48,095 nt of DNA from Planctomycetaceae bacterium (GTDB lineage Bacteria; Planctomycetota; Planctomycetia; Planctomycetales; Planctomycetaceae), in assembly GCA_020426515.1 (NCBI GenBank), contig JAGQPW010000022.1:1-48095 (forward strand), in the 5' to 3' direction. Below the pieces are notes generated by a model. The model searched no databases. It had not been told where the DNA came from and worked only from the letters and a program-made list of their open reading frames with translations. Positions 6,506-10,079 of the stretch are shown here, piece by piece; positions within the stretch are counted from its first letter, which is position 1, and each line of letters starts with the position of its first letter. The position numbers were made by a program, and so were the translations under genes.

Positions 6506-6576
6506 ATTAGTCTCTTGAAGGATCGTGCTAAAGCGCGTTCCCGCGCCTGATTCAGCGCAATATATTGAGGTCAGCT

Positions 6577-6984
6577 GTGGATTCATTGGCTCCAAAGCAG
6601 CAGTTTCTTGCCAGTCTCGATCGTTGTACCCAGTCGGCAGAATTCCTGACCGAGTTCTACGAGCATTTCATCAACTCGTCACAAGAAGTTCGGATCCACT
6701 TTGCGGGCACGAACATCGAGAAGCAAAGCCAGATGTTGCGGCGCTCTCTGCAATTGACGGCAGCAGCGACCACTGGAGACGCCACCGGATTGCGTGAACT
6801 GCGAGCCCGGGCTGAATCCCACGACCGCGATCACCTGAATGTTCGCCCCAAATTGTACGAACTGTGGCGGGTCAGCTTAATTGAAACGGCCCGCAGGTTT
6901 GACGATGCATGGGATCACGACGTGGAAGACGCGTGGAATCGCATTCTCGGCTACGTCATTAATCACATGACGCGACATTATTAG
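6577..6984 (+). CDS. Single-domain globin-like protein
   Basis: Start chosen as GTG 6577 because GAGGT lies 5 nt upstream (6567-6571). The 135-residue product is one all-helical globin domain. It has FLTEFYEHFINSS in the B helix region, the putative proximal histidine in ESHDRDHLNVRP followed by LYELW, and a C-terminal G/H helix region. The pattern HLNVRP-x-LYELW resembles small bacterial haemoglobins and the haem domain of flavohaemoglobins. No reductase or sensor output domain is attached. Likely role is binding of oxygen or nitric oxide, an inference from family. It lies 71 bp after the MOSC gene on the same strand and may be co-transcribed with it. Confidence 0.8.
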   Translation: MDSLAPKQQFLASLDRCTQSAEFLTEFYEHFINSSQEVRIHFAGTNIEKQSQMLRRSLQLTAAATTGDATGLRELRARAESHDRDHLNVRPKLYELWRVSLIETARRFDDAWDHDVEDAWNRILGYVINHMTRHY

Positions 6985-7372: not shown

Positions 7373-7570
7373 TCAAATGCGACGCACGTTCTCTGCGCGA
7401 GGTCCCTTAGGGCCGTTACCGGCGTTGTAGGAGACTCGCTGTCCTTCGCGCAGTTCTTCGAACCGAGCGCCTTCCACATTGGAGCTGTGGAAGAACATGT
7501 CTTTGCCCGATCCATCGTCGATGAATCCAAAGCCCTTATCCGTAATTCGCTTAATCGTGCCTTCTGCCAT
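7373..7570 (-). CDS. Cold-shock domain protein (CspA family)
   Basis: A 65-residue single cold-shock domain beginning MAEGTIKRI. RNP1-like KGFGFIDD and RNP2-like DMFFHSS carry the aromatic residues that stack on single-stranded RNA or DNA, and the end is GPKGPRAENVRRI. Length matches the family. The frame has an ATG four codons earlier (7582), so a four-residue longer start is possible; 7570 matches family N-termini. Likely an RNA chaperone in cold or growth-transition adaptation. The neighbours upstream, a DEAD-box RNA helicase and a small basic protein on the same strand, fit that role. Confidence 0.93.
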   Translation of the reverse strand: MAEGTIKRITDKGFGFIDDGSGKDMFFHSSNVEGARFEELREGQRVSYNAGNGPKGPRAENVRRI

Positions 7571-7702: not shown

Positions 7703-7885
7703 TCACTCGCCGGAGACGTTGCGAGCATTCAAATCAGGTCGTAACTGCGGAACTGCGGGACCGAGCGAGGAAGAGTTCGGACCGTCCGACTTCCGTTGCT
7801 CGCGACGCGCCTGTTTTTCGCGCGCCTTGTCCTTCTTTTCCATTTCACGTTTGCGTTTGGCGTAGGTGTTCTGATTCTTCGCGAT
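7703..7885 (-). CDS. Small lysine/arginine-rich protein with an apparent AUC start codon
   Basis: The frame encodes 60 residues beginning (M)AKNQNTYAKRKREMEKK and continuing with a highly charged helix, then a proline-containing tail ending NVSGE before TGA (7703-7705). AKNxNTxAKRxREMEKK is, from memory, the start of a conserved small basic protein often found near cold-shock or helicase genes in planctomycetes and myxobacteria. The codon at the expected initiator is ATC (7885-7883), preceded by AGGAG (7893-7897) with 7-nt spacing. No in-frame ATG, GTG or TTG fits: the only in-frame ATG is 14 codons inside, and an upstream CTG (7912) has no ribosome site. It lies 63 bp after the helicase and 132 bp before the cold-shock gene. 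Confidence 0.7.
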   Translation of the reverse strand: MAKNQNTYAKRKREMEKKDKAREKQARREQRKSDGPNSSSLGPAVPQLRPDLNARNVSGE

Positions 7886-7948
7886 GGGTTTTCTCCTGAA
7901 AAAACAAGTCAGTTTTACAGTTCATCAATGGGACATCGAGCCCCAACC

Positions 7949-9352
7949 TTAGTCCTGTTTCGCAGCCCGCTGCCGTGGTGCCATCCCCTTGGGACGACGC
8001 TTGGCCTTCGGGCGAGAAGGTCGGCCTGCACTGGCGGTACTGCCGGCAGCAGGCTTTCCATTTCCGCTTCCACTTCCGTTGCTATGCCCAGAGCCAGAGC
8101 GTGGGCCGGAAGGCTTGCCGCCGCCCGAATAGGGACTGCGACCACGTGGTCCAGGGCGACGATTCGAAGCGGCAGCTTTGTGCCCGTACGACTTGGACGC
8201 CGGGTGTTCTTCGCGGGGAGGAGGTTCCGGCTGATTGGCAGCCAATGGAATCTTCTGTCCGATGAGTTGCTCAATTGCCCGCAGTTCGCGACGTTCGCTG
8301 GAACTGCAGAACGAAACGGCCATTCCGGATGCCCCGGCCCGTCCCGTTCGACCGATGCGGTGCACGTAGCTTTCCGGTTCATCGGGGATATCAAAGTTGA
8401 CGACGTGCGTGACACCGTCAACGTCGATTCCGCGAGCGGCCACATCGGTTGCGACGAGCACCTGAACGTGCTTGCGACGAAAAGCGTCGAGAGCCTTCTG
8501 GCGAGCTCCCTGCGACTTATTGCCGTGAATTGCCGTCGCTCGAAAGCCGCTGCGTTCGAGTTGTTCGGCCAGAGTGTTCGCTCCGCGTTTGGTGCGGGTG
8601 AAGACAACGGCCCGGTCGACACCTTCGCCGGTCAGCAGGTCTCGCAGGTAACCCTGCTTCGCACCCCGTTCGACAAACACAACCCGCTGATCAATCAGAT
8701 CGACGCTACGTGTTTCTGGCGTCACATTGACGGTCACTGGATCTTGAAGCAGGCTCTCAGAGAGTTCTGTGATTTTTGGTGGCAGAGTCGCAGAGAAAAA
8801 CAGTGACTGCCGATTCTGTGGCAGTTGTTTGATGATCCGCTTCAAATCGGGAAGGAACCCCATGTCCAGCATGCGGTCCGCTTCGTCGAGTACGAACACT
8901 TCGAGCTGGTCGAGCTGAATGTGTCCCTGATTCATCAGATCGAGCAGCCGGCCGGGAGTTGCCACAAGAATGTGGGCTCCGCGACTCAACATTCGAACCT
9001 GGTTTCCCTGTCCAACGCCACCATAGACAAGGGCTTGCCGCAGTCGCAGGTGGCGACCGTAGGTGGCAAAGCTCTCGCCGATCTGAATGGCCAGTTCCCG
9101 GGTGGGGGCCAGGATCAGTGCGTTGGGGCGATTGGGAACCGCTTTGCGGTTCTGTTTGCCCAGTCGATTCAGAATGGGCAGGGCGAACGCGGCTGTTTTG
9201 CCGGTCCCTGTCTGGGCGCTTCCCAGAATATCGCGACCTGCAATTGCAGGAGGCACAGTCTGTGCCTGAATTGGCGTGGGTGTGACGTAATTTTCTTCGG
9301 CCAGTGCACGTTGCAACGGGGCGATCAGTTCAAGTTCCGCAAAAGTCTTCAA
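7949..9352 (-). CDS. DEAD-box ATP-dependent RNA helicase (RhlE-like)
   Basis: Start chosen as TTG 9352 (LKTFAELELI), with AGGA 6 nt upstream, giving 467 residues. Motifs in order: Q motif with PTPIQAQ, Walker A AQTGTGKT, PTRELAIQ, TPGRLLDL, DEAD in VLDEADRMLDMGF, SAT, then ARGIDV and HRIGRTGRAG. The last ~100 residues are a low-complexity tail rich in Arg, Gly, Ser, Pro and Lys, as in RhlE/CsdA-type helicases, where it helps bind RNA. The likely role is unwinding structured RNA in ribosome assembly or cold adaptation, supported by the cold-shock gene downstream. Non-ATG starts recur in this cluster. Confidence 0.93.
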   Translation of the reverse strand: MKTFAELELIAPLQRALAEENYVTPTPIQAQTVPPAIAGRDILGSAQTGTGKTAAFALPILNRLGKQNRKAVPNRPNALILAPTRELAIQIGESFATYGRHLRLRQALVYGGVGQGNQVRMLSRGAHILVATPGRLLDLMNQGHIQLDQLEVFVLDEADRMLDMGFLPDLKRIIKQLPQNRQSLFFSATLPPKITELSESLLQDPVTVNVTPETRSVDLIDQRVVFVERGAKQGYLRDLLTGEGVDRAVVFTRTKRGANTLAEQLERSGFRATAIHGNKSQGARQKALDAFRRKHVQVLVATDVAARGIDVDGVTHVVNFDIPDEPESYVHRIGRTGRAGASGMAVSFCSSSERRELRAIEQLIGQKIPLAANQPEPPPREEHPASKSYGHKAAASNRRPGPRGRSPYSGGGKPSGPRSGSGHSNGSGSGNGKPAAGSTASAGRPSRPKAKRRPKGMAPRQRAAKQD

Positions 9353-10079
9353 TGGTGTTCCTAAAAATATTGTCAATGTCAGTCTCCCGACCACAGTCGA
9401 CCGCACAACGGTCCGCTGGTCGGAATGACACACGGTGAGCCCGGTGATCCCGATGCGGGAGAGAAGTTGGTTCTATCGCCCAAAGACAATGTGAGGCAGT
9501 CGAGACGACCTCGCTCTATCTGCAAGCGAAAGCAATCGCACCCCGATTGAGGTGCCGGGAATATGGCGAATCACTTCGACAGTTCCTCTGGAGTTCGCCG
9601 AGCTCGACCAGGCAGTACGCCCATCCGAAAAGCAAACGCCGCTAATGGGAATTCCGGACAAACAAGAAGGTCACAGAATTCATTGCGTCATAGACGCGAG
9701 CGGCTTTCCGATGCGGTTAACGAAACCGATGGTTGGCAGCACTTGGGTTACGGCGACATGCCGACTCAGGTGATACAGGGGACAGCGATGGCTCCAATTT
9801 TGGCCGTCTACCCCGCTTGGTCAGAGAACACAGCCAATTTATATGCTGCGCTTGCTTCTTCTCGACCAGATCGACAAGGCATCCCTGAGAAAAGGCCATG
9901 TCGAGACCTACTATACTTCAAGTCGACTGTGCCGCCTAGTCACATTCATGTGATTCGCGGGGCATCAGTCAGAATATCTGTACCGTTTGGACTCATTCGC
10001 TGCATAAGCCCGACAAGCGGGCAGGCCACGCCCCATGTACGCTGCCTGCCCCGCCCATCGTTGCGCGATCGGCTTCACA
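9353..10079. other. Long non-coding stretch upstream of the RNA helicase, 727 bp
   Basis: No convincing gene on either strand. A 62-codon minus-strand frame at 9473-9661 starts at TTG without a ribosome site, and a plus-strand frame at 9563-10219 runs into cysK and looks like chance. The stretch lies upstream of the helicase and downstream of cysK, so it must contain the cysK end and the helicase promoter, perhaps with a long 5' untranslated leader. GCCCG (10008-10012) and CGGGC (10018-10022) form a small hairpin 58 bp beyond the cysK stop. Confidence 0.5.

Follow-up and report, generated by a model that had tools for sequence, protein, structure and literature searches.

To our knowledge, only a few bacterial genes keep AUU, AUC or AUA as their start codon. 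Discrimination against AUU- and AUC-type starts by initiation factor IF3 is a general property of bacteria. IF3 destabilises initiation complexes on non-canonical starts, and the E. coli infC gene, which encodes IF3 and begins with ATT, is thereby autoregulated (PMC5472188). In Streptomyces, infC starts with ATC, and sigR, with a GTC start, is repressed by IF3 (PMC5472188). The conserved starts of cvfC1 (AUU) and ccpN (AUA) in S. aureus give roughly a tenth of the output of AUG (PMC13009471). An inefficient AUU start also limits translation of E. coli pcnB (Binns and Masters 2002, cited by PMC13009471).

The window, that is, the whole stretch of 48,095 nucleotides of Planctomycetaceae DNA that was analysed, carries a small gene that appears to join this small class of conserved AUH starts, and that is notable for the breadth of its conservation and for the codon it shares with infC. 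Genes of the class combine a conserved start position with a strong, well-spaced Shine-Dalgarno (SD) sequence, and both features were found here (Table 1). The reverse complement of positions 7703-7885 translates as I-AKNQNTYAKRKREMEKKDKAREKQARREQRK...NVSGE-stop, over 60 codons; a sequence-only reading had delimited the gene correctly without giving a strand, and the frame is on the minus strand. The ATC in the initiator position and the AGGAG with 7-nt spacing that it described were both confirmed. It had also noted the lack of a usable ATG, GTG or TTG, and indeed none of the three occurs among the 12 codons that separate the ATC from the upstream in-frame stop. The sole canonical start in the window's frame lies downstream, an ATG at codon 15, and initiation there would remove the conserved N-terminus.

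Table 1. Coordinates of the small gene, its putative initiation signals and its neighbours in the window
Feature	Position	Strand	Basis
Small Lys/Arg-rich protein gene, putative AUC start, 60 codons	7703..7885 (stop codon included)	-	Translation, homologues, codon-position divergence
Putative AUC initiation codon	7883..7885	-	Same codon in homologues: ATC 85/119, ATT 4/119 (non-redundant)
Shine-Dalgarno sequence AGGAG, 7 nt before AUC	7893..7897	-	Window sequence
DEAD-box RNA helicase gene, upstream, 63 nt gap	7949..9433	-	Pfam DEAD and Helicase_C
Cold-shock protein gene, downstream, 132 nt gap, ATG start	7373..7570	-	Pfam CSD

Homologues were pooled from family, class, phylum and pattern-based searches into a non-redundant set of 119 planctomycete sequences, the outgroup members coming from the class and phylum searches. 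The first search of relatives recovered the small gene from further genera of the family, nearly always with an ATC in the corresponding position. A profile search of the window's family covered 170 genomes in 58 genera and was positive in 80 and 34 of them, respectively; given that about half of the family's genomes are without a match, the small gene would not be needed everywhere in the family. The pattern-based scan covered 84,980 species genomes and yielded 56 loci, nearly all titled planctomycetes, the exceptions being two with no title beyond 'bacterium' and one carrying the label Kuenenia, which is itself a planctomycete. Codon 1 in these loci was ATC in 46, ATT in 3 and ATG in 6, with one mis-registered ATC. 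A tblastn search of plasmids gave no matches to the small gene.

Among the 119 homologues, codon 1 is ATC in 85, ATT in 4, ATG in 23, GTG in 4 and TTG in 2, the last one (L167) being out of register and also ATC. ATC and ATT together account for 89 of them, and canonical starts are located on exactly this codon in 27 of the 29 canonical-start homologues. Counted over the search results, 32 of the 34 genera of the window's family have AUC or AUU in at least one species, complete genomes among them; the two exceptions, with nothing but ATG, are the genera of G094 and G104. Differences also occur between sister species, as in G108 (ATC) and G107 (ATG). From the isoleucine codons used in the longest ORF of these loci, about 44 ATC of 73 would be expected, and 70 were observed; the recurrence of ATC/ATT at codon 1 is, as judged from such comparisons, far beyond chance.

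Several copies of the small gene were found in some genomes: G104 has three (L148, L160 and L164), all with ATG, and its infC also starts with ATG, and G121 has two (L165 and L166), both with ATC. In a Stieleria-like clade (L049, L058 and L064) the start is ATT and residue 2 is Thr instead of Ala.

The conserved protein block begins directly after the AUC codon, and the pairwise divergence of homologues by codon position (0.19/0.21/0.59) shows the predicted small ORF to be under selection at the protein level. Of 86 homologues, 79 carry a motif containing GGAG at 6 to 8 nt ahead of the start codon; the spacing peaks at 7 nt, where 54 of the 86 have a GGAG-type motif. Two AUC/AUU loci, L097 and L011, are devoid of a clear SD. 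The alignment of homologues suggested by the sequence-only reading placed the ATG of the outgroups at the exact position, with ATC recurring throughout the family. From these comparisons, AUC is well supported as the conserved start position of a real coding gene.

Other explanations of the ATC were weighed against this assignment. A true start at another site (a canonical codon further upstream or the ATG of codon 15), or through frameshifting from another frame, is very improbable. Many homologues share the codon-15 ATG with the window copy, and a canonical codon occurs somewhere in the upstream open part in 40 of 87, but the distances of these upstream codons are scattered from 2 to over 100 codons. 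The upstream stop is at most 5 codons away in 14 AUC/AUU homologues, and in 22 of the 87 there is no canonical start at all between the upstream stop and codon 24, neither upstream nor in codons 2-24. The SD and the protein conservation likewise indicate the AUC, and the outgroup starts fall on that codon. It would also be very surprising if the conserved ATC were an RNA element or regulatory site not involved in initiation. Its third base is C in 81 of 85, compared with a 59% pairwise third-position difference elsewhere, which goes beyond what AUC/AUU equivalence needs. Against this, third positions elsewhere vary freely, relatives have ATG, GTG or TTG instead of ATC at the same codon, and a search for conserved RNA structure around the start found none (mean z +0.5 versus shuffles).

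An assembly or sequencing error that changed ATG into ATC was considered by the sequence-only reading and is scarcely credible. The window belongs to a fragmented draft genome of 530 contigs, but the ATC is repeated in independent isolates and in single-contig genomes (e.g., CP036272 and CP036526; G002, G005, G077 and G078), and ATC/ATT recurs across genera including complete genomes; this explanation was thus rejected. The recurrence of AUC/AUU at one place in dozens of related species, like its common use in their infC, points to deliberate translational control rather than to sequencing error.

The infC gene of planctomycetes, whose starts were assigned by inspecting the SD and the alignment, begins with AUC or AUU in 65 of the 79 genomes examined, the window's own (L190, contig C210 of G000) among them. 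The infC loci (L188-L287) are mostly AUC/AUU, with a few TTG or ATG. The AUC of the small gene belongs to the start class against which IF3 discriminates, the same class as infC in the same genomes, and the infC-type control that had been suggested from the sequence gains support from this, the regulation itself being what we infer. Strict co-variation of the start codons of the small gene and infC was sought across the 79 genomes and not found: 8 genomes combine an AUC/AUU small gene with a canonical infC and 13 show the reverse (table 52/8/13/6; Fisher p = 0.09, with kinship ignored).

Like infC, which starts with AUU in E. coli, with ATC in Streptomyces and with AUA in S. aureus, the small gene pairs a non-canonical AUH codon with a good SD, and planctomycete infC mostly has the same AUC; infC, however, encodes the regulator itself and forms a closed loop, whereas the product of the small gene is unrelated, small and basic. 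The S. aureus genes cvfC1 (61 aa) and ccpN also encode a small or regulatory protein and have a conserved non-canonical start and a strong SD (PMC13009471). They are Firmicutes genes with experimentally mapped AUU or AUA starts, whereas the AUC described here is known from sequence comparison, and they are likened to it by start features, not by sequence. E. coli pcnB encodes a different protein and is comparable in its inefficient AUH start. Planctomycete genes of the PolyA_pol family, considered as a further AUU-type gene, were discarded, as those checked have mostly ATG, GTG or TTG candidate starts. Streptomyces sigR shows that IF3 can repress a gene with a non-canonical start outside infC (PMC5472188); it differs in having GTC, in encoding a sigma factor and in that its control was demonstrated experimentally, whereas IF3 control of the small gene is proposed.

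The explanation favoured here, with a probability of roughly 0.7, is that of a real gene with an AUC start compensated by its SD, an output limited by IF3 as for infC, and a basic RNA- or ribosome-binding product. Translation would start at the AUC, presumably with initiator fMet-tRNA, and the good SD would partly offset the weakness of this codon. IF3 would discriminate against the AUC, and the output would be low and track the IF3:30S ratio, by analogy with infC. Non-canonical starts are IF3-sensitive in infC and sigR and lower the output of cvfC1 and ccpN; the simplest account is that the small gene would likewise be kept low and IF3-sensitive.

It is rather unlikely that the AUC, although a real start, serves only to fix a constant low dose, in stoichiometry with the helicase and the cold-shock protein, with no regulation by the level of IF3. 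Some IF3 sensitivity is to be expected from the generality of IF3 discrimination in bacteria, and infC of the same genomes has the same codon; on the other hand, the small gene and infC show only a loose association in their start codons, and in S. aureus weak starts alone cut output about tenfold, the AUU of cvfC1 being without a medium effect (PMC13009471). An extension of the IF3-limited reading, tentative and itself doubtful, is that planctomycetes possess a small IF3-sensing start-codon regulon, composed of infC and the AUC-start gene located by helicase and cold-shock genes, both translated according to free 30S relative to IF3. If true, such a regulon would couple ribosome supply to the RNA-remodelling response.

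The predicted structure of the product consists of a single helix (residues 3-34) and a disordered tail (mean pLDDT 74). The mean net charge is about +8.6 for residues 1-36 and -4.9 thereafter. The protein would be a short basic helix with an acidic disordered tail that probably binds RNA or the ribosome. Searches of Pfam, NCBIfam, PHROGs and PDB gave neither a family nor a solved structure matching the product, and a search of the open-access literature yielded no article about this protein or about planctomycete AUC starts.

The small gene is preceded by a helicase gene in 40 of 84 AUC/AUU loci vs. 4 of 29 canonical-start homologues, and followed by a cold-shock gene in 43 of 88 vs. 2 of 29; this contrast partly reflects phylogeny, the canonical-start set being largely outgroup. 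In each of the 33 loci tested, the adjacent cold-shock gene has an ATG start, so the AUC is no general habit of the neighbourhood. In cold-shocked E. coli, initiation factors reportedly rise relative to ribosomes (PMC6511846). A link of the small gene with cold adaptation, drawn from this behaviour and from the neighbouring genes, is speculative.

The AUC start of the small gene is kept across dozens of genera, with natural ATC, ATT and ATG variants and with infC mostly using the same codon, and may thus provide a natural data set on why bacteria retain bad start codons. It is also implied that gene callers limited to ATG, GTG and TTG would mis-start or miss both the small gene and infC in many planctomycetes.

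In distant homologues with a TTG or ATG start (L177, L179 and L187), the cold-shock gene lies just upstream, not downstream, which suggests a general link of the small gene with cold-shock genes. Elsewhere in the window, an ORF at 6565-6984 of the plus strand weakly matches the globin domain (Pfam PF00042), scoring slightly under the curated cut-off.
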